64,000 nucleotides of DNA from Anaerolineae bacterium (GCA_021463865.1 JAJTXY010000001.1:248001-312000), one strand, 5' to 3'; shown: positions 1,303-11,656, counted from the stretch's first letter. The notes: a model not told the origin generated them from the sequence alone. Numbers and translations: made by a program.

Positions 1303-4152
1303 ATGGTGAAGAAACTTATCAAATCAATCTTCGGGGATCCAAACGAAGGAAAACTGAAGCGTTACCGCCAAAAGGTTGAAGAAATCAACGCACTGGAACC
1401 CCAGTTGCAGAAAGAATCTGACGAGCAGTTACGCCAACGATCACTTAAACTGCGTGAAAAACATCAAGCGGGCACACCATTGGATGATTTGCTGGTAGAG
1501 GCTTTTGCGTTGGTACGCGAAGCCAGTCGCCGCACGATTGGCCTGCGCCATTTTGATGTGCAGTTGATCGGGGGTATGGTGCTGCATGAAGGCAACATTG
1601 CGGAAATGCGCACCGGCGAAGGGAAAACACTGGTTGCCACCCTGCCGCTCTATCTCAATTCACTGACCGGACGTGGCTCACATCTGGTCACCCCCAACGA
1701 CTACCTCTCTAAAGTCGGCTTGCAGCAAATGGGGCCGATTTATCATTTCCTCGGTGTTTCGTCGGGAGTGATTCAAAGCAGTGCCCAACAGCGGGGGTCG
1801 TTTCTCTATGACCCGGATTTCCATAGCAATGATGAGCGCTATGAAAATTTGCGCCCTGTGACCCGTAAGGACGCCTATAATGCCGATATAACCTATGGCA
1901 CGAATAACGAATTTGGCTTCGACTATTTACGCGATCATATGGTGCGTGACCTGCGGGAAAAAGTGCAGCGCGGGCATTACTTTGGCATCGTGGACGAAGT
2001 AGACAATATTTTGATTGACGAAGCCCGTACTCCTTTGATTATCTCCGGTACGGCCTCCGCCCCGTCTGACCTCTATCAATTGTTTGCCAAAATCGTGAAA
2101 CCTCTAAAACCCTCATCCGATGCCTCGGTGGAAAATGAAGAACCCGACGGTGATTACGTTTTGGATCAGCGTACCAAAGGTGTCTATCTGACCGAACAGG
2201 GCGTTGAAAAAGTGGAACGAGCTTTCAAAACATCGGGCCGGATGGTGGGAGATAATCTTTATAGCCCGGATAATGCCGATGTGATTCCTTATCTCGATAA
2301 TGCCCTGCGTGCCAATGTCGCCTATGAAATTGACCGGGATTACATCGTGGATGAGGGCGGTCAAGTCGTCATCGTGGACGAGTTCACTGGACGTTTGATG
2401 CACGGGCGGCGCTTCTCGGAAGGGCTGCATCAGGCGATTGAGGCGAAGGAAAATGTTGAAGTCCAGCGCGAAAACGTCACTCTAGGCACGATTACCTTCC
2501 AAAACTATTTCCGTATGTATGAGAAATTGGCAGGTATGACCGGCACGGCTATGACCTCGCTGGCCGAATTCCGCCAGATTTATAACTTGGATGTGGTCGC
2601 CATTCCCACCCACCGTCCTGTTATCCGTAACGATAACCAAGACGTGATTTATATGACTGAGGCCGCCAAATTTAATGCAGTGGTCGAGGATATTCGAGAG
2701 CGCCAACAGCAGGGTCAGCCTATTCTGGTGGGCACGGTAGCGATTGAAACCAGCGAACACCTCAGCAAATTGCTGAAAAAGGCAGGTATTGAACATACTG
2801 TCCTCAATGCCAAGCAGCACTTCCGTGAGGCCAATATTATTGCCCAAGCGGGCCGCCCCGGTGCGGTCACGATTGCGACCAATATGGCGGGGCGTGGGGT
2901 TGATATTTTGCTCGGCGGCAACCCAGAAGGGATGGCACGTGCCGATTTACAAAGTCAAGGGCTTGATCTGACCCAGCTTGAGCCAGAGGTGTGGAATGCG
3001 ACACTCGAAAAAGCCAAACAACAAGCTGCCCGTGACCGAGAAGTTGTTTTGGAGGCCGGGGGATTGTACGTATTGGGTACAGAACGCCACGATGCGCGTC
3101 GCATTGACAATCAGTTACGTGGTCGTGGGGGACGGCAGGGCGACCCCGGTGAAAGCTGTTTCTATCTCAGCCTTGAAGATAACTTGATGAAACGCTTCGG
3201 GGCAGAACGGGTGCGCGGCTTTATGCAGTGGGCCGATATCCCCGAAGACCAACCGATCCAGCACAGTTGGATTAGTAAATCCATTGAACAGGCCCAAGAG
3301 CGTGTAGAAGCCTATTATTTCGATATTCGCAAGCGCGTTTTGGAATATGACGATGTGGTCAACAAGCAGCGTCAGGCCATGTATAAACAACGTGACGAAA
3401 TTTTGACCGCTGACCCGGCCACATTGCGCGAGAAAATTCACCAACTGGTCGCCGCTGAAATTGGGGAGTTCTGCAAGACGTATCTGGTTGGCGAGCGTGA
3501 CGAATGGGATTTGGATGAAGTTTATCGTCAAGCCCTAACCATTTACCCTGTCCCGCCGGAAATCACACCCGACGTCCTTGAGGCCCAGAACAGCGCCGAA
3601 GATATTGAAGTTCTACTCCTCAAAGGTGCGCTGCAAGCCTATGACCGCAAGACGGAAGAACTGGGTGGGCCAGAAAATATGGCACAGGTGGAGCGTCAGG
3701 TCATTTTGCAGGCGATGGATTCGCTGTGGGTGCGTCACCTGACTGACCTTGATGTCCTACGCGAAGGCATTGGTTTGCAAGCCATTCGCCAGCGCGACCC
3801 ACTGGTAGAGTATAAGATTGAAGGTTTCCGTATGTGGCAAGACCTTCAAAACGAAATTCAATCCACGCTTGTTCGGAATATTTTCCGCGTCGAGATGGCT
3901 CGTCGCCAAGAACAAAAGGTCTCGAATGTGCGTGAAGGCCAGCAAATGGTTGACGCATCCAATGTCAGGACAAACGCGCCAACCTCTGCACCTGAACCCA
4001 CCCGCGCTGCCAACCGACCGGGCCGAAATGACCCCTGCTGGTGTGGGAGTGGCAAGAAATATAAACACTGCCATTACGAATCTGACCAGCAGGACCGCCA
4101 GCCTGTTGCTCGTACACAAACCAAATCAGCCCCACCCAGCCGTCGCCGTTAA
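1303..4152 (+). CDS. secA: Preprotein translocase subunit SecA
   Basis: ATP-driven motor that pushes unfolded preproteins through SecYEG. It has 949 residues. Visible signatures: the N-terminal SecA motif ending in the Walker A loop MRTGEGKT (102-109); Walker B with DEVD (231-234) and the downstream ILIDEARTPLI; the motif IV-VI region with TNMAGRGVDI and LRGRGGRQGDPG; and the helical scaffold/wing with SWISKSIEQAQ. A C-terminal SEC-C zinc motif (NDPCWCGSGKKYKHCH, about 909-924) normally binds SecB or the ribosome. A short acidic insertion (SSDASVENEEPDGDY) sits after the first ATPase half. The gene is alone between a terminator and a new promoter, as is usual for a housekeeping gene. Confidence 0.98.
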   Translation: MVKKLIKSIFGDPNEGKLKRYRQKVEEINALEPQLQKESDEQLRQRSLKLREKHQAGTPLDDLLVEAFALVREASRRTIGLRHFDVQLIGGMVLHEGNIAEMRTGEGKTLVATLPLYLNSLTGRGSHLVTPNDYLSKVGLQQMGPIYHFLGVSSGVIQSSAQQRGSFLYDPDFHSNDERYENLRPVTRKDAYNADITYGTNNEFGFDYLRDHMVRDLREKVQRGHYFGIVDEVDNILIDEARTPLIISGTASAPSDLYQLFAKIVKPLKPSSDASVENEEPDGDYVLDQRTKGVYLTEQGVEKVERAFKTSGRMVGDNLYSPDNADVIPYLDNALRANVAYEIDRDYIVDEGGQVVIVDEFTGRLMHGRRFSEGLHQAIEAKENVEVQRENVTLGTITFQNYFRMYEKLAGMTGTAMTSLAEFRQIYNLDVVAIPTHRPVIRNDNQDVIYMTEAAKFNAVVEDIRERQQQGQPILVGTVAIETSEHLSKLLKKAGIEHTVLNAKQHFREANIIAQAGRPGAVTIATNMAGRGVDILLGGNPEGMARADLQSQGLDLTQLEPEVWNATLEKAKQQAARDREVVLEAGGLYVLGTERHDARRIDNQLRGRGGRQGDPGESCFYLSLEDNLMKRFGAERVRGFMQWADIPEDQPIQHSWISKSIEQAQERVEAYYFDIRKRVLEYDDVVNKQRQAMYKQRDEILTADPATLREKIHQLVAAEIGEFCKTYLVGERDEWDLDEVYRQALTIYPVPPEITPDVLEAQNSAEDIEVLLLKGALQAYDRKTEELGGPENMAQVERQVILQAMDSLWVRHLTDLDVLREGIGLQAIRQRDPLVEYKIEGFRMWQDLQNEIQSTLVRNIFRVEMARRQEQKVSNVREGQQMVDASNVRTNAPTSAPEPTRAANRPGRNDPCWCGSGKKYKHCHYESDQQDRQPVARTQTKSAPPSRRR

Positions 4153-4169
4153 TTCATTCAATCCACTTG

Positions 4170-4200
4170 TAGGGGAGGGTGAGATACTTGCCTTCCCCTA
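4170..4200 (+). repeat. GC-rich hairpin after secA, possible interspersed repeat or terminator
   Basis: TAGGGGAGG and CCTTCCCCTA form a stem with one bulge around a 12-base loop. There is no T-run after it, so it is a weak terminator at best. The core resembles the GTAGGGGTAGGG...CCTACCC segment inside the inverted-repeat element at 13752-13876, which suggests a degenerate dispersed repeat. Confidence 0.45.
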
Positions 4201-4264: not shown

Positions 4265-4274
4265 CCGCTATAAT
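4265..4274 (+). promoter_or_regulatory. Candidate -10 box for the KaiC/histidine kinase operon
   Basis: A perfect TATAAT (4269-4274) directly follows CCGC. It lies 57 bases before the ATG at 4331. No good -35 is seen at 16-18 bases. The CCGC next to the -10 recurs at several other candidate promoters in the window. Confidence 0.42.
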
Positions 4275-4324: not shown

Positions 4325-4708
4325 GTGGTGATGGGGAGTAATCAAGAGGAACTGACGAGCCGCTTGATGGATGATATTGACCCCGACTTGTTGGAGTTTA
4401 TCCAGTTACGGGTCAATACATTTATCAAATGGGATTTGGTGCAGTTTTTCCACCGCAATCCGCATACCACTGATTTGCCCAACCAAATTGCTCAATATAT
4501 TGGGCGCGACCCCCGCATTGTTGCGCCAGAACTCAAAGCACTGGCGGCATCTGGCGTATTACATGAAGAAGAGCTTCAAGGGATGCGCATTTATACCCTC
4601 GCTCCCGATGACGACATGCGTCAACGCATCACCCGGTTTGTAGAGGCTTGTGAGGATCGCCAATTTCGCCTCAAAGCCATCTATCATGTCATTAAAGGGC
4701 TGCATTGA
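4325..4708 (+). CDS. Winged-helix-like regulatory protein
   Basis: A protein of 127 residues counted from the GTG at 4325, or 125 from the ATG at 4331; neither start has a strong ribosome site. The middle part (WDLVQFFHRNP, then LPNQIAQYIGRDPRIVAPELKALAASG) has the helix pattern of an ArsR/MarR-like winged helix: a recognition helix followed by a short hairpin (GMRIYTLAPDD). It is an inferred DNA-binding regulator or an adaptor using the same fold. The stop codon overlaps the start of the KaiC-like gene by four bases (ATGA), so the two are translationally coupled and probably work together. It is the first gene of a tight cluster ending in the histidine kinase. Confidence 0.7.
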   Translation: MVMGSNQEELTSRLMDDIDPDLLEFIQLRVNTFIKWDLVQFFHRNPHTTDLPNQIAQYIGRDPRIVAPELKALAASGVLHEEELQGMRIYTLAPDDDMRQRITRFVEACEDRQFRLKAIYHVIKGLH

Positions 4709-5517
4709 TGATACCTAGCATCCCAAATTTGCCGCGTTTGGCAACTGGTATCAGCGGTTTAGATGATATGCTGCAAGGCGGCTTTTTGCCCCGCACCGCC
4801 AATTTGATCGAGGGCGCTCCCGGCACAGGCAAAACTACGCTGGGGATGCAATTTATCCATCATGGCATTGCGGCGGATAATGAAGCGGGACTAATTTTGA
4901 CCTTTGAGGAATTCCCTATCCATTATTATCGGGACGCACTGGGTTTTGGCTGGGATTTTCAACACTATGAAAAAGAAAACCACCTACGGGTGGTCATGAC
5001 TAGCCCCGAAGTCACCCTGAGTGATTTGCAGCGCCTCGGTGGGATTTTGGAAGCACACGCCTCCCAAATTGGCGCACGCCGGGTTTTGATTGACAGTATC
5101 AGTCATTTTGAGCGTATCAGTAGTGATCCAGTGACGCTCCGCACGCTGGTTTATCAGTTTATCAATGTCCTCAAGCGTTTGGGCCTGACTGCCGTCCTGA
5201 CCCGTGAAAATCCGGCGCTATTGGGTGAGACACCAGAGGATGAAGAAGACCTTGCGTTTATTGCCGACAGCTATATTATGCTGCGCTACGTGGAGATTGA
5301 AAGCGCCCTTGCCAAAGCGCTCTTGGTACTAAAGCAGCGCGGCAGTAATCATGCCCGTGATATTCGGCAGTATCAAATTGGGGCAACTGGTATTGTGGTG
5401 CAAGAGCCGTTTGAAGGGGCACAGGGCGTGATGAGCGGCAGTCCGGTGATGACCATGCGAGACGCTTTCCAAAAAGCATTTTTTGCATCCAAAAATCGTC
5501 CGCCAGAAAAATCATAG
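4705..5517 (+). CDS. KaiC-like RecA-superfamily ATPase
   Basis: Single-domain KaiC/GvpD-type ATPase, 270 residues, compared with about 500 for the double-domain clock KaiC. The N-terminus has the family hallmark TGISGLDDMLQGGF, then Walker A GAPGTGKTT (37-45), the paired glutamates FEEF (67-70) and a Walker B-like RRVLIDSISHFE (125-135). The C-terminal part carries DIRQYQIGATGIVV, typical of KaiC-like proteins that form rings. It overlaps the winged-helix gene by four bases and is followed after eight bases by two small membrane proteins and then a sensor kinase. This suggests a signalling role, perhaps gating a kinase as KaiC does with SasA. That role is inference from context; the ATPase family assignment is secure. 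Confidence 0.88.
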   Translation: MMIPSIPNLPRLATGISGLDDMLQGGFLPRTANLIEGAPGTGKTTLGMQFIHHGIAADNEAGLILTFEEFPIHYYRDALGFGWDFQHYEKENHLRVVMTSPEVTLSDLQRLGGILEAHASQIGARRVLIDSISHFERISSDPVTLRTLVYQFINVLKRLGLTAVLTRENPALLGETPEDEEDLAFIADSYIMLRYVEIESALAKALLVLKQRGSNHARDIRQYQIGATGIVVQEPFEGAQGVMSGSPVMTMRDAFQKAFFASKNRPPEKS

Positions 5518-5525
5518 GGTGAACC

Positions 5526-5819
5526 TTGAGTCTAAATTTAAATCAAATTCTTTTATTTATCAGTTGGTTTGCTGGAACAGGCCTAATTTATATATTGGCG
5601 CTAATTGCTCGATTTTATGAGATTAATTCGGGTGAAAAGACCTATTACCGCTTTTTTGCGGCACCTCCCATTGTATTTGGCGCGGCAACGGCTCGTTATT
5701 CAAGTTTGGATCAATGGGGGGGCGATTGGCTTGGGGATGTATTACTCTTTGCAGGAGGGGCGGTCTTATTAGGGTTGTGTTATCATCTGTATCATCGCAT
5801 GACCAGTGGACGACCATAA
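5526..5819 (+). CDS. Small membrane protein
   Basis: A protein of 97 residues from a TTG start eight bases after the KaiC-like stop; AGGGTGA lies just upstream. It contains an N-terminal helix (ILLFISWFAGTGLIYILALI), an amphipathic segment with TYYRFFAAPPIVFGAA, and a C-terminal helix (VLLFAGGAVLLGLCYHLY). The YYRFF/A stretch has a counterpart (PLYRWFYVAAV) in the next gene, and both proteins place it after the first helix, so the two look like diverged partners. I recognise no family. Its position between an ATPase and a kinase suggests a membrane anchor or sensor component. Confidence 0.7.
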   Translation: MSLNLNQILLFISWFAGTGLIYILALIARFYEINSGEKTYYRFFAAPPIVFGAATARYSSLDQWGGDWLGDVLLFAGGAVLLGLCYHLYHRMTSGRP

Positions 5820-6162
5820 ACCGATGAAAGTCCTCACACTTCTAAGCTCTCTTGCTCCTATTGCTATCACCATTATGCTGGTCATCTTTGCCGAGTTAAG
5901 CCGTCGGTTGGGGGCTGTTGTCAAAACGGCCCCACTGTACCGATGGTTCTATGTCGCGGCGGTATTGACATTTTGTAGTTCGGTGGTGCGACTCCTCAGC
6001 ATTGAGTTCTCGCAGGAAGATTTTGAATATTCAAATGGGCAGGAAATTGCTGCCTACGCCTATACGTTCCCGCTGATGATGGGCTTGCTGCTGGCTTTAT
6101 GGGTTGCATGGCGCTATTGGGGATGGCTGATATATGCAGGAGAAGGAGACTCCCCAGCATAA
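5806..6162 (+). CDS. Small membrane protein, partner of the preceding one
   Basis: A protein of 118 residues if it begins at GTG 5806, overlapping the previous gene by 14 bases, or 112 residues from ATG 5824, which gives the more usual MKVLTLLSS start; neither has a clear ribosome site. Three membrane segments are visible: ITIMLVIFAELS, WFYVAAVLTFCSSVV, and FPLMMGLLLALWVAWRYWGWLI. Between the second and third is an acidic loop (EFSQEDFEYSNGQE) that could be a small extracytoplasmic sensor. No family is recognised. The following kinase starts 50 bases later. Confidence 0.68.
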   Translation: MDDHKPMKVLTLLSSLAPIAITIMLVIFAELSRRLGAVVKTAPLYRWFYVAAVLTFCSSVVRLLSIEFSQEDFEYSNGQEIAAYAYTFPLMMGLLLALWVAWRYWGWLIYAGEGDSPA

Positions 6163-6211
6163 GGCATCGTAAAAAATCGCTCAGAGAATTTAGGCCTTTA
6201 TTGATAATGAT

Positions 6212-8806
6212 ATGACCGCTTCAAGAATTGTGTCGAATGGTGTCTATCCCACACCTACTGCCATAGCGCTTTTGGTGGATGTGAACGGCATCATCCACTT
6301 TGTCACTGAAGATATAGAGCAATTATTGGGCATTCATGGATCGGCAGTGATCGGTAAATCCCTTTTCGATCTGATGCCGCCAGAAAAACAGGCACCAAGC
6401 CGGCATGAATGGTCAAAGTTCGTTCAGCATATTTTGGCAGAGGAACCTCATGCCCACAATTTTCAGACGATTTTAGTCGAAGGCGCTGGCAAATCTTTGC
6501 CGGTTCGTCTGAGGGTGACTCCCGTACCTAATCGAGATGAATTGTTGGTACAGATCGAACGTGAGACCAACAGTATTGAACGTGCCCAAACCCTTGCCCT
6601 GCAAAAGGTGATTTCGGCGATCACGACCCTCGACATTCGGGAAATACTAGACCTGATCTTGGATCAGGCAACTTATTTTATCCCATCTGACGGTGCAGTT
6701 ATTGTGGTTGAGGTCAACGATGATTTGCATCTGGTCAGCGAACGGGGGTATTTCGAATGGAAGGGTGTTCACTCCACCTATCCCTCAGCGGAAATTATGC
6801 GGGCGGAAACCACCCGAATTTTGCGCGAAACTCGCCGCCCCTTGATTATTGATGATTGCCAAAACGACCCACGCTGGCAGGTGTTGGGGGCTGAACCCTC
6901 CATTGCAAGCTGGTTAGGTGTGCCACTCGTCTTCCGGGATACGTTTTTGGGGATGCTGCATCTGTATTCATCAACGGCCCATTCATTTAATCAGAACGAT
7001 GCTAATCTCGCCATGAGTTTTGCCGAAGAAGCGGCGGTTGCTATTCACAACACGCGGCTGTATGAGGAAGCCCAAACCCGTGCCCAAATGCTTGAAACCC
7101 TGAATGATTTGGGGGTCGCAGTGAGTCGTTTGGATTTGCACGGGGTCTTGGAAATCGCCTATCAAAAACTGAGTCAGGTGATGGACACCCGCAGTTTTTA
7201 TATTGGTGTTTATAATCCGGAAACGCGCCAATTTTGGTTAACACAGACGTATGATGATGGTCAGCGCATTGATGACCTTGTAACGCCGATTGAGGAAGAA
7301 ACCGGGCTGGTCGGATGGGTATTTCATAACCGCAAACCGCTGATTATTCATGACGATAATCAAGACCTCTATCCCATTCCACCGATTACCTATGGTGGGG
7401 ATACGCGCAGCCTCGTTATTCTGCCATTAATGGTGCAGGATGAATTTGTTGGGGTGATTTCTGTACAGAGCTATATCCCTAATCGTTTTAATGAACAGGA
7501 TATTGCGGTGCTGCAATCCGTCGCCAGCCCCTTAGCGATTGCGATACGGAATGCGCAACTGTATGAAAATGCCAAACATCGCCTAGCCGAAGTTTCAGCA
7601 CTCCATGAGTTGGCACGAACTGTCACCAGCACCACCAGCACCGAGTCCATTAGTCAAATGGTTGTCAACAGCCTTCATGCGATTTTTCAATGTCAGGCGA
7701 GTGCGCTTTTGTTAGTTGAGGGTGATGAAGTGATTCTCAAGGCATCATCCGGCATCGCACCCGAATACATTCCACTCGCACGTTGGAAAATTGGTGAAGG
7801 GGTGGCCGGCAAAGTCGCCGCAACAGGCCAAACAATGTATATTCAAGATACCCAAGCAATTCCCGAATTCATATATTTGGAGCCAACTTTGCGTTCAATG
7901 TTGGCTGTGCCTTTGAATTTCAACGATCAGGTGATCGGGGTGCTGTCCATTGATAGTGATACACCCCATGCCTTTACTGCCGACCATGAGCGCGTCTTGA
8001 ATATCGTAGCCGCACAGGTCGCCGCCGCGATTGAAAATGCCCGGCTTTTACACGAGACCCGCCAGCGAACGGTTGAATTAGAAGATGCTTATCGCCGATT
8101 GCAGTCGCTGAATGAATTTCGAGAAGAATTGGTACACAACATCAGCCACGATTTGCGATCTCCGATGACGTTTGTCAAAGGTTACATTGAACTCATGCGG
8201 GAACTCATGCTTGGCCCGCTGACCGAGGAACAGGTTAACGCGCTGGAAGTGATTGACCGAAAATCAGACGCGATGCTGCGGCTCATTAACGAGATTTTGA
8301 GGATGAAAGATATTCGCCCCGATACGCTCGAATTCGTCGAGGCCGATCTCTGTGATATTGTTCAACAGCATATTGAGCAAGCGCAGTTGTCCTATGCAGA
8401 TAGCGGTGTTATTTTTGAACCTGCCCCTCGGCAAGACCCTCTGATGGTGCGCGTTGATTTAGATAAAATGGATCGGGTATTGGAAAATTTGGTTGCTAAT
8501 GCTGTCAAGTTTTCTCATGTGGGCGGACATGTACGCATCTATTGTGAGCCAAGCGAAGATCGTCGTCATGGACGGGTGATTGTGCAAGATGAAGGTATCG
8601 GGATTCCCAGTGATAAATTAAATTACGTGTTTAAGCGGTTTTTTCAGATAGATACTCCCGATGGTACACCTTTGGAAAGTGGTGTTGGTATTGGCCTCTC
8701 CATTGTGAAACAGATTGTAGAGGCGCATGACGGCAAAATCGAAGTAGAAAGCGAAGTAGGCAAGGGCAGCAAATTTTGGTTCACCCTGCCGCTTCGAGAA
8801 GGGTAA
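6212..8806 (+). CDS. PAS/multi-GAF sensor histidine kinase
   Basis: A soluble kinase of 864 residues. An N-terminal PAS domain (about 10-115, with [12 protein letters not shown]) is followed by three GAF domains (about 130-285, 300-455 and 465-620). Each GAF ends in the usual [13 protein letters not shown]-type helix, and a coiled linker leads to the kinase core. HisKA has the phosphoacceptor H646 in [12 protein letters not shown]. HATPase_c has the N-box around N763 ([11 protein letters not shown]), G1 DEGIGIP (793-799) and G2 [12 protein letters not shown]. There are no membrane helices, so the signal would be cytosolic or come from the two membrane proteins just upstream. No response regulator is adjacent; the single-domain receiver at 21975 is a possible but unproven partner. 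The adenosine deaminase starts nine bases later. Confidence 0.95.
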
Positions 8807-8815
8807 ACGAGAGCA

Positions 8816-9889
8816 GTGGCGTTTGAAGTGACGGATGCCATTCAACGCGATTCCGAGACTTGGCGGGCACTCAAAGCGATGCCAAAAATTGAACTCCATC
8901 GCCATTTGGAGGGGGCTATTCGCTTGGATACGTTGGTTGAGGTTGCCAAGCAATATGATATTCCGTTGCTCGCCTATGATGTGGAGGGATTGCGACCTCA
9001 TGTCCAAGTGATGCGTGATGACCCACCGACCCATCAACGATTTTTGAGCAAATTTAGTATCCTGCGGCAATTTTTTGTGGCCGAGGAAGTGATTCGACGG
9101 GTCGCCTGTGAAGTCGTTGAGGACGCCGCCGCTGATAACATCCGTTATATGGAACTGCGCTTCACCCCGTTTGCGCTGGCAAAATGTATGGATTTCCCAC
9201 TGGCCGATGTTATGGCATGGGTCAATGAAACCGTGAGCGAAACCGCCGCTAAACTTGGGGTTCAAGTGAACCTGATTGTCGCCATGAACCGCCATGAAAG
9301 TGTTGCGATTGGTGAACAAATGATGCGCCTCGCTGTAGATTTTTTGGGGCGTGGCGTGACGGCAGTGGATTTGTGTGGCAATGAAGCAGGCCATCCTGCC
9401 GATCCATTTACCGAAATATTTCTGGCGGCTCATCAAGCGGGGTTAGGTGTAACCATCCATGCCGGGGAATGGGCTGGTGCGGAAAATGTGATTTATGCAA
9501 TTGAGCAACTCCATGCCCGCCGTATTGGGCATGGGGTACGTGCCATCGAAAATCCGATTGCCTTACAATTGGCGCATGATTTTGGGGTCTGCTTGGAAGT
9601 CTGCCCAACGTCAAATTTGCAGACTGGGGTGGCGGTGTCAGTTGACCAGCATCAGTTGTTGAACCTGCGTTCGTTGGGCCTCAATGTCACCCTCAATACC
9701 GATGACCCGACGGTAAATAACACTACTCTGACTGATGAGTATGCGCTGGCGGTACAAGGGCTAGGCTTCCCTATTGAATACCTTCAGCAGTGTATTCTCA
9801 ATGCCGTGCAAGGGGCATTTTTGTCACCCGACGATAAGGCGACCCTCGAGGTCGAATTTAGAACGGCATTTAATCATCAGGTGTTATAA
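8816..9889 (+). CDS. add: Adenosine deaminase
   Basis: Hydrolytic deamination of adenosine or deoxyadenosine to inosine in purine salvage. It has 357 residues from GTG 8816. The zinc-binding HxH is at 28-30 (IELHRHLEGA), followed by the substrate-proton shuttle HAGEW, RIGHGVRAI, the CPTSN motif and the catalytic LNTDDP. Length and motif order match bacterial Add; a related N6-modified-adenine deaminase cannot be excluded. It begins nine bases after the histidine kinase, so it may be co-transcribed. The window also carries nucleoside-type ABC permeases, which fits purine salvage. Confidence 0.93.
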   Translation: MAFEVTDAIQRDSETWRALKAMPKIELHRHLEGAIRLDTLVEVAKQYDIPLLAYDVEGLRPHVQVMRDDPPTHQRFLSKFSILRQFFVAEEVIRRVACEVVEDAAADNIRYMELRFTPFALAKCMDFPLADVMAWVNETVSETAAKLGVQVNLIVAMNRHESVAIGEQMMRLAVDFLGRGVTAVDLCGNEAGHPADPFTEIFLAAHQAGLGVTIHAGEWAGAENVIYAIEQLHARRIGHGVRAIENPIALQLAHDFGVCLEVCPTSNLQTGVAVSVDQHQLLNLRSLGLNVTLNTDDPTVNNTTLTDEYALAVQGLGFPIEYLQQCILNAVQGAFLSPDDKATLEVEFRTAFNHQVL

Positions 9890-9938
9890 TAATCCCCACC
9901 ACTGATGAATTATTCAGAATTCCCCGCAAGGATTGGGC

Positions 9939-10817
9939 ATGTTCAAACTAGATCATGATGCTTTTACTGTTCATGTGTTCAGTGATGGCGAAGTGAAGGT
10001 GGATTGTGGTGGCCCTTTTGGGCTTGTGCCGCGTGTGTTATGGAGTCGCTATCAGACGCCCGACGGCAACCACATGCTGCCCATGTGCCTCAATAATTTG
10101 TTGATTCAGGCGCATGGCAAAAACATCTTGGTAGATGTGGGGCTAGGCAGCAAATTAACCCCCAAAATGGAGGCCCAATGGCAGCTTACCCACCCCAACG
10201 GCACATTAATTGAAGGGCTGGCGCGAGTGGGGTTAAAACCGGAAGATATTGACCTAGTGATTAATACACATCTTCATGCCGATCATGCCGCCGGGAACAC
10301 CATTCTGGGCGAAGGGGGTCAAATCGTACCCACCTTCCCAAATGCCGAACATGTCGTCCAACGCCGCGAATATGAAGATGCAATGCACCCCAACGAACGC
10401 ACATCCGCCACCTATATCGCCGCGAATTTCGAACCGCTAATCAAAAACGGGCAAATGCGATTATTGGACGAAGACACCGAGATTTTGCCAGGGATTTGGG
10501 GCGTGGTGACACCCGGCCACACCCCCGGTCATATGAGTGTCGTGATTGACAGCGGTGGCGATCATTTGCTGTTTGCCTGCGACCTTGCCACCTATGCCGT
10601 TCACTTTGAAAAATTGGGGTGGATGACGGCCTATGATGTCGAGCCGTTAGTAACGCTGGAGACCAAACGTAAATGGCAGGGGTGGGCATGGGAAACCAAC
10701 GGGATTATAATTTTTCCGCATGATGTCACCCTGATGGCGGCCCGCCTCAGTCAAGACGAGGCCGGTAAACCCAAACTCATTCCATTGACTGAAGCCGAGG
10801 GCGCTTGCTATTCTTGA
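9939..10817 (+). CDS. MBL-fold metallo-hydrolase
   Basis: Metallo-beta-lactamase fold hydrolase of 292 residues. AAGGA at 9928-9932 is well spaced from ATG 9939, which favours this start over the in-frame TTG at 9933. The metal-binding motif THLHADHA has H111, H113, D115 and H116. It is followed by the third histidine in PGHTPGHMSVVI and the bridging aspartate in FACDLATYA. The sequence resembles the AttM/AiiB-type or quorum-quenching-like branch, but many members have unknown substrates. A possible -10 TATAAT lies at the end of the upstream add gene, so it may also have its own promoter. Confidence 0.85.
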   Translation: MFKLDHDAFTVHVFSDGEVKVDCGGPFGLVPRVLWSRYQTPDGNHMLPMCLNNLLIQAHGKNILVDVGLGSKLTPKMEAQWQLTHPNGTLIEGLARVGLKPEDIDLVINTHLHADHAAGNTILGEGGQIVPTFPNAEHVVQRREYEDAMHPNERTSATYIAANFEPLIKNGQMRLLDEDTEILPGIWGVVTPGHTPGHMSVVIDSGGDHLLFACDLATYAVHFEKLGWMTAYDVEPLVTLETKRKWQGWAWETNGIIIFPHDVTLMAARLSQDEAGKPKLIPLTEAEGACYS

Positions 10818-10864
10818 AGCATTGCATCGAACATTTAGCCTAGTCTAAAGAAAGTCAGCCATCC

Positions 10865-11656
10865 ATGCAGTCAAACGGTTTTTATGTTCCAAAACGTGTT
10901 ATGGTCATTATGGCCCACCCCGATGATATTGAGTTCTCATGCGCGGGAACGATTGCCCGTTGGGTCAAAGGCGGGGCGAAAGTCTGTTATGTCTTGGTCA
11001 CGAGTGGGGATGTCGGGATTGCCGATTTAACCCTGACCCGTGAGCAGGCCCGCGATATTCGAGAAGTTGAGCAAAGGGCCGCTGCCGCCAAAGTCGGGGT
11101 CGAAGAAGTCGTCTTTTTGCGCGAACCCGATGGCATGTTGGTCAACACGCTCGACCTCCGCAAACGCTTGGTACGCGAAATTCGCCGTTACAAACCAGAT
11201 GTGGTCGTCTGCCAAGACCCTACGGCCTTTTTTGTCTCCAACACCTATATCAATCACCCCGACCATCGTGCGGCGGCAGCAGCAGCGGTGGATGCGGTAT
11301 TCCCAGCGGCGGGTCAACCCCATATTTTTCAAGAATTAGAAGCCGAGGGCTTGTCGGCGCATAAGGTCAAAAAGGTCTATGTTTCGACGTGGCGCGAAGC
11401 CGATACCTATGTCAACATCAGCGATACCATTAATCTAAAAATTGAAGCCCTGTTTGCCCACAAGAGCCAGATGGATGAGATGATTCGTCAGGGTCGTGGT
11501 AAATTGGAGGATATTGGCAAATGGGTACGGGACTGGTCATCCGAACGCGGGCAAGGTAAAGAGATGGCCTATGCCGAATCGTTTAAAGTGGTAACACTTG
11601 AAGAAGACACGCCAGAGCAGGTGACTGAAGGCGCGATTGTTGAGACAAATAGTTAA
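10865..11656 (+). CDS. PIG-L (LmbE-like) deacetylase
   Basis: Zinc-dependent N-deacetylase family, 263 residues. The signature [13 protein letters not shown] contains H18, D20 and D21, and the third ligand lies in [12 protein letters not shown]. The family includes GlcNAc-PI, mycothiol and bacillithiol deacetylases and antibiotic-tailoring enzymes, but the sequence alone does not tell which substrate is used here. The gene stands 47 bases after the MBL-fold gene without a clear ribosome site and is followed by a hairpin at 11665. Confidence 0.9.

Follow-up and report, generated by a model that had tools for sequence, protein, structure and literature searches.

A conserved gene row combining a single-domain KaiC-like ATPase with a winged-helix protein and two membrane proteins in the class Anaerolineae

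We analyzed a window (the whole stretch of DNA under study) of 64,000 nucleotides from Anaerolineae bacterium GCA_021463865.1 (JAJTXY010000001.1:248001-312000), whose genome, here called G000, is 97% complete. Five consecutive genes in this window encode a winged-helix, DNA-binding-like protein (wHTH), a single-domain relative of KaiC (KaiC-A), two small membrane proteins (TM1 and TM2), and a histidine kinase (HK), and we found that they form a module conserved across the class Anaerolineae, with a gene order far beyond chance. It is best called a widely conserved real module, undescribed as far as our literature search shows, and a variant of KaiC-like ATPase signaling. The features of the module are as follows.

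4325..4708, + strand: wHTH, winged-helix DNA-binding-like protein, 127 amino acids; start at GTG 4325 or ATG 4331
4708..5517, + strand: KaiC-A, single-domain CII-like KaiC ATPase; start at TTG 4705 or ATG 4708; matches PF06745 (1.8e-49) and KaiC entries of the PDB
5526..5819, + strand: TM1, three-helix membrane protein, 97 amino acids; conserved loop LIARFYxxxSGxxTYY
5824..6162, + strand: TM2, three-helix membrane protein, TM1 homologue; reading frame opens at GTG 5806; loop LSRRLGxVTxxPxYYR and end AWRYWxWL
6212..8806, + strand: HK, soluble PAS-GAF-GAF-GAF-HisKA-HATPase histidine kinase, by Pfam domains

Conservation of the gene row

The five open reading frames (4325-4708, 4705-5517, 5526-5819, 5806-6162, and 6212-8806, all on the + strand) lie where a preliminary description of this DNA had placed five genes in this order on one strand. 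Its account of their spacing needs revision in two places. ATG 4708 is the likelier start of KaiC-A, giving a TGATG with a one-base overlap with wHTH in place of four bases, and for TM2 the probable start is ATG 5824, the point from which relatives show homology, so that the supposed 14-base overlap of TM1 and TM2 is probably a 4-base gap. The ratios of nonsynonymous to synonymous substitution against the congener L066 (0.047, 0.035, 0.057, 0.074, and 0.071 for genes 1 to 5) show that all five frames are under strong purifying selection and are therefore real genes.

A wHTH homologue was present in 30 of 61 genomes, the window's own counted. Around the 29 copies in other genomes, the order was secA, wHTH, (kaiC), TM1, TM2, (HK), an adenosine-deaminase-family gene (ADA), and (a metallo-beta-lactamase-fold hydrolase gene, MBL), on a single strand. 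Scanning the genome collection turned up 80 named loci labeled Chloroflexi, Anaerolineae, Thermoflexales or Aggregatilineales, bar one Bacteroidetes-labeled record (L139), which carries the typical Anaerolineae block secA-wHTH-TM1-TM2-ADA-MBL and is probably a mis-binned contig. wHTH was accompanied by KaiC, TM1, and TM2 in 63 of these loci and by TM1 and TM2 but no KaiC in 15; one of the remaining two is truncated by a contig end, and the other is a solo paralogue.

A sample of 396 genomes of the class yielded 93 wHTH matches in 89 genomes (E up to ~1e-34), TM1 in 94 genomes as a single copy each, and 76 copies of the KaiC-A clade. KaiC-A adjoined TM1 in 76/76 cases and wHTH in 75/76; one copy (in G371, 319 bits) owes its place in the clade to its position, and without it, counting only by score, the figures are 75/75 and 74/75. 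Conversely, 87 of the 93 wHTH matches adjoined TM1, and 74 of these 87 came with KaiC-A. It is this recurrence, in most of the 80 loci and for 87 of the 93 wHTH matches of the class sample, that places the order far beyond chance: the genes do not drift apart in relatives, and the module in Chloroflexota that the preliminary description had suggested is conserved across the class Anaerolineae. Among 301 genomes drawn from the phylum, three class members had TM1, with one further marginal match.

The proteins of the module

KaiC-A belongs to the KaiC/RecA-like superfamily (PF06745, 168.7 bits against a gathering threshold of 26.6) and, as anticipated from its description as a single-domain KaiC relative, has one ATPase domain in 270 amino acids, resembling the CII domain of KaiC. 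The Walker A lysine and the first catalytic glutamate are invariant in 53/53 orthologues, which also keep the Walker-B Asp-Ser, KxRGSxH, and a CII-like SGSP tail. Where KaiC has its phosphosites Ser431 and Thr432, the window has Ala and Phe; among the 53 orthologues, the Ser431 place is Ala in 37, and the Thr432 place is Phe in 50 or Tyr in 3. Scores for the two-domain KaiC model TIGR02655 (146 bits, cut-off 546) and for PRK09302 (199 versus 408 bits) fell below cut-off, and a search of G000 for KaiB (PF07689) gave zero matches, with the positive control from S. elongatus detected.

A second, paralogous KaiC clade (KaiC-B) occurs elsewhere in 51 genomes and is paired with wHTH only in G062, where a second wHTH stands directly before KaiC-B without TM1/TM2 (L171 5971-7097, G062:C101), a separate wHTH-KaiC pairing. 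The window's genome has a single-domain KaiC-B (G000 C16:18350-19081; locus L062 4998-5771); a PPIC-type foldase and two proteins that match no Pfam family lie ahead of it, and a tetrapyrrole/RsmI-type methylase gene comes after it.

AlphaFold2, run on 68 sequences, predicted a winged-helix fold for wHTH with a mean pLDDT (model confidence) of 87.7. The nearest solved structures were the archaeal 3r0a (best by Foldseek, E 1.4e-3) and regulators of the ArsR/SmtB and MarR types, and alignments with known regulators gave VIA-align Z scores of ~10 and root-mean-square deviations of 3-6 Å over 90-100 residues. The winged-helix fold that had been proposed is thus borne out, and wHTH is a predicted DNA-binding protein. 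It shares this fold with the ArsR/SmtB and MarR/TrmB regulators but scores below their family cut-offs and has conserved N- and C-terminal segments of its own, the first 20 residues being modeled with low confidence although they contain a conserved LMDDMDPxLL stretch. Solo wHTH paralogues occur elsewhere in Anaerolineae genomes (L178, L179, L180, L181, L182, L185, and L188), and one group of them lacks the C-terminal FRVKAIYHVIR segment.

Like wHTH, TM1 and TM2 fell under no family above cut-off in Pfam or NCBIfam. The predicted helices of TM1 span residues 5-35, 41-61, and 68-94 (pLDDT 85). Profile alignment by hhalign joined TM1 and TM2 with 90.9% probability (E 1.2e-6), whereas 30 column shuffles that preserve hydrophobicity reached at most 8% and the reversed profile 0.2%; the two are therefore homologous three-helix proteins. 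Their most conserved residues (LIARFY, LSRRLG, and WRYWxWL) would, by the charge rule, lie on the cytoplasmic side. Neither protein had a substantial match in Pfam, among PDB sequences or by Foldseek (a fold search with TM1 gave no usable match, the best E being 2.0), and distant kinship to known families is possible.

The kinase is, by its Pfam domains, complete and soluble: PAS and three GAF domains precede HisKA (1.1e-14) and HATPase_c (2.7e-27), placing it among the histidine kinases and agreeing with its earlier description as a GAF-rich PAS/GAF kinase. Pfam found only PAS and GAF in its N-terminal part, and the KaiB-like domain of SasA-type kinases is absent from it; PF07689 is absent across G000. 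When compared with G019, from another family of the order, HK matched the cluster copy best (360 bits versus 190 for other kinases), which supports orthology within the order.

Lineages with parts missing and the secA-ADA block

Of the 80 named loci, 39 have HK, and within this set HK never occurs without KaiC; among the 38 KaiC-bearing loci that are fully covered, 29 have it. A kinase usually found without the ATPase, which would have spoken against the preliminary description, is therefore not the pattern. The kinase is a frequent but dispensable partner, and of the module's parts it and KaiC are the more readily dispensed with; wHTH occurs with TM1/TM2 in the absence of both. Other combinations were secA-TM1-TM2 only (G016), secA-TM1-TM2-ADA (G017), secA-wHTH-ADA (G195 and G092), wHTH-TM1-TM2-HK without KaiC (G052), and wHTH-HK without KaiC and TM1/TM2 (G058 and G040). 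Within the window's own family, G007 has secA-TM1-TM2-HK-ADA-MBL-LmbE without wHTH and KaiC. TM1 and TM2 are naturally fused in one frame in G028 and G416.

On a SecA tree of the 80 loci, the fewest changes needed were 9 for KaiC, 7 for HK, 5 for wHTH, and 6 for TM1. Full modules stand on either side of its deepest split, as fits an ancient module that was lost repeatedly, but the tree was built quickly and rooted at its midpoint and does not tell gain from loss. Loss of KaiC together with the kinase went in the same direction in a few independent pairs, in numbers too small for a test.

The surroundings of the module contain the following features.

1303..4152, + strand: secA, syntenic neighbor not counted into the module; adjoins ADA without the module elsewhere
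4171..4200, + strand: strong hairpin 3' of secA, probable transcription stop; 14 pairs, RNA fold -22.2 kcal/mol, z -3.8
4269..4274, + strand: TATAAT, probable -10 box of a module promoter; invariant in five congeners
8816..9889, + strand: ADA, adenosine-deaminase-family gene (PF00962, 1.7e-80), usual downstream neighbor, membership uncertain
9933..10817, + strand: MBL, metallo-beta-lactamase-fold hydrolase gene, frequent neighbor further downstream

Where enough flanking DNA was available, secA lay directly upstream in 62/66 named loci, ADA was found in 50/59, and MBL in 25/59; across the class, ADA, and in many cases MBL, is conserved together with secA, downstream of it. Because several genomes lacking the module (G006, of the window's family, G018, G011, G071, and G086) have secA beside ADA with zero module genes between them, the secA-ADA block is present with or without the module, which sits inside it. 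In the window, ADA, MBL, and LmbE-like genes follow the kinase at 8816-11656 with gaps of 10-47 bases.

The secA-wHTH gap of 172 bases holds the hairpin, which we interpret as a terminator; in the congener L066 the hairpin after secA is followed by GCTTTTTT, and the window copy has no T-run. The TATAAT lies inside a conserved block of this gap in an alignment of five congeners, with a weak -35. The module is thus likely to have its own promoter, and the hairpin and TATAAT together suggest that it is not simply transcribed by readthrough from secA. A shared operon with secA is weakened by these two elements and by the adjacency of secA and ADA in genomes without the module.

Possible roles of the module

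We read the module, tentatively and with somewhat less than even confidence, as a membrane-anchored signaling system based on KaiC and not as a clock. The linkage, the fold, and the TM1–TM2 homology are results; the mechanism is drawn from the linkage and from precedents. TM1 and TM2 would form a heteromeric membrane hub with their conserved loops facing the cytoplasm, and the hub, directly or via the GAF/PAS input of the kinase, would determine how a KaiC-A ring assembles or which nucleotide state it takes. The ATPase might then bind, hold back or release the wHTH regulator, much as haloarchaeal GvpD acts on GvpE. Where KaiC-A is missing, TM1/TM2 would act directly on wHTH, and our first guess for the target of wHTH is autoregulation from the conserved promoter at ~4269. 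Put more boldly, this would be an undescribed bacterial transmembrane system in which a duplicated TM1/TM2 receptor controls a phosphosite-less KaiC ring that gates wHTH, with the GAF-rich kinase modulating, so that archaeal-style KaiC signaling is built into a membrane receptor; we consider this possible but put less trust in it.

Several observations weigh against a signaling system of this kind. Lineages that have wHTH, TM1, and TM2 without KaiC, TM1 and TM2 alone after secA, or wHTH alone suggest that the parts may work separately, and the membrane topology comes from hydrophobicity and positive residues only. The stretch MDDMDPxLL of wHTH is kept in 42/48 sequences with KaiC versus 9/20 without (Fisher 5e-4), and the C-terminal YH in 47/48 versus 11/20 (Fisher 3e-5). 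As a KaiC-docking motif, however, this bias fails phylogenetic correction and is not evidence, because the rows without KaiC are mostly one clade and the SecA tree supports only two independent pairs.

The alternative that survives best, although we judge it unlikely, is that wHTH-TM1-TM2 is the real unit, a membrane-controlled regulator, while KaiC-A and the kinase, kept beside it by position, are add-ons with functions of their own elsewhere. A whole family-level clade with wHTH-TM1-TM2 and neither KaiC nor kinase fits this idea, as does the TM1-TM2-kinase row of G007. A free add-on, however, would not be found beside TM1 every time, with zero genomes of the class sample having KaiC-A but no TM1.

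It is distinctly improbable that the module serves protein export, with TM1/TM2 as accessory membrane factors of SecA and wHTH regulating secA. The upstream position of secA in nearly all loci, and secA-TM1-TM2 alone in G016, would be expected from it; yet secA keeps its place beside ADA in genomes without the module, so that its position does not depend on the module, hairpin and TATAAT separate the two in the window's genus, the module occurs without secA in L106, L126, and L134, and Pfam revealed no similarity to Sec components.

We give almost no credence to a circadian or interval timer in which KaiC-A is a phosphorylation oscillator and the kinase a SasA-like output. KaiC CII similarity and a kinase in the same cluster speak for it. 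Of the signaling or timing module that the preliminary description had proposed, the conserved module stands and the timing role is not supported: a clock is contradicted by the single ATPase domain with the phosphosites missing, the TIGR02655 score, the absence of KaiB from G000, and a kinase with PAS/GAF in place of the KaiB-like domain of SasA. Capture from archaea of an archaellum-type regulator is just as remote, for although some Anaerolineae have archaella and ArlH is a KaiC homologue (PMC12488501), the NCBIfam ArlH model gave KaiC-A 34.5 bits against a cut-off of 215, by which this identity was rejected; KaiC-A is much closer to KaiC CII, and the neighbors identified by Pfam are not archaellum genes.

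Several known systems come close to the signaling module we favor. KaiC-A shares Walker A, the catalytic Glu, KxRGSxH, and an A-loop-like SGSP tail with the CII domain of the cyanobacterial clock protein, but is single-domain, has no Ser431/Thr432 and no KaiB, and is not accompanied by SasA; HK resembles SasA in being encoded near a KaiC relative but carries PAS and three GAF domains where SasA has a KaiB-like sensor. For single-domain KaiCs of ~250 amino acids without KaiB and phosphosites, archaea are the main known source, with a few bacteria besides (PMC5520375), and KaiC-A differs from these in its fixed order with wHTH and two uncharacterized membrane families across a bacterial class. 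In haloarchaea, GvpD is likewise a P-loop ATPase encoded beside the regulator that it controls; it lowers the activator GvpE and requires its nucleotide-binding motif to do so (PMC4390858), but GvpE is leucine-zipper-like, no membrane partner is known, and the GvpD model matches KaiC-A weakly. In Haloferax, much of the transcriptional effect of the KaiC relative CirA is also seen with CsmR, and a link between them has been proposed (PMC13286277); KaiC as an archaeal signaling hub appears among the work cited in PMC5847659. A search of the literature on KaiC in Anaerolineae, on the Pfam families that matched weakly, and on KaiC-like operons in Chloroflexota found no description of the module.

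Non-clock KaiC-like ATPases are common, with partner and purpose mostly unknown. Here the partners are fixed by class-wide linkage and include two membrane families that Pfam does not list, and a natural experiment is provided by lineages in which KaiC, the kinase, wHTH or the entire module is missing. With four small proteins, the role of a non-clock bacterial KaiC becomes directly testable.

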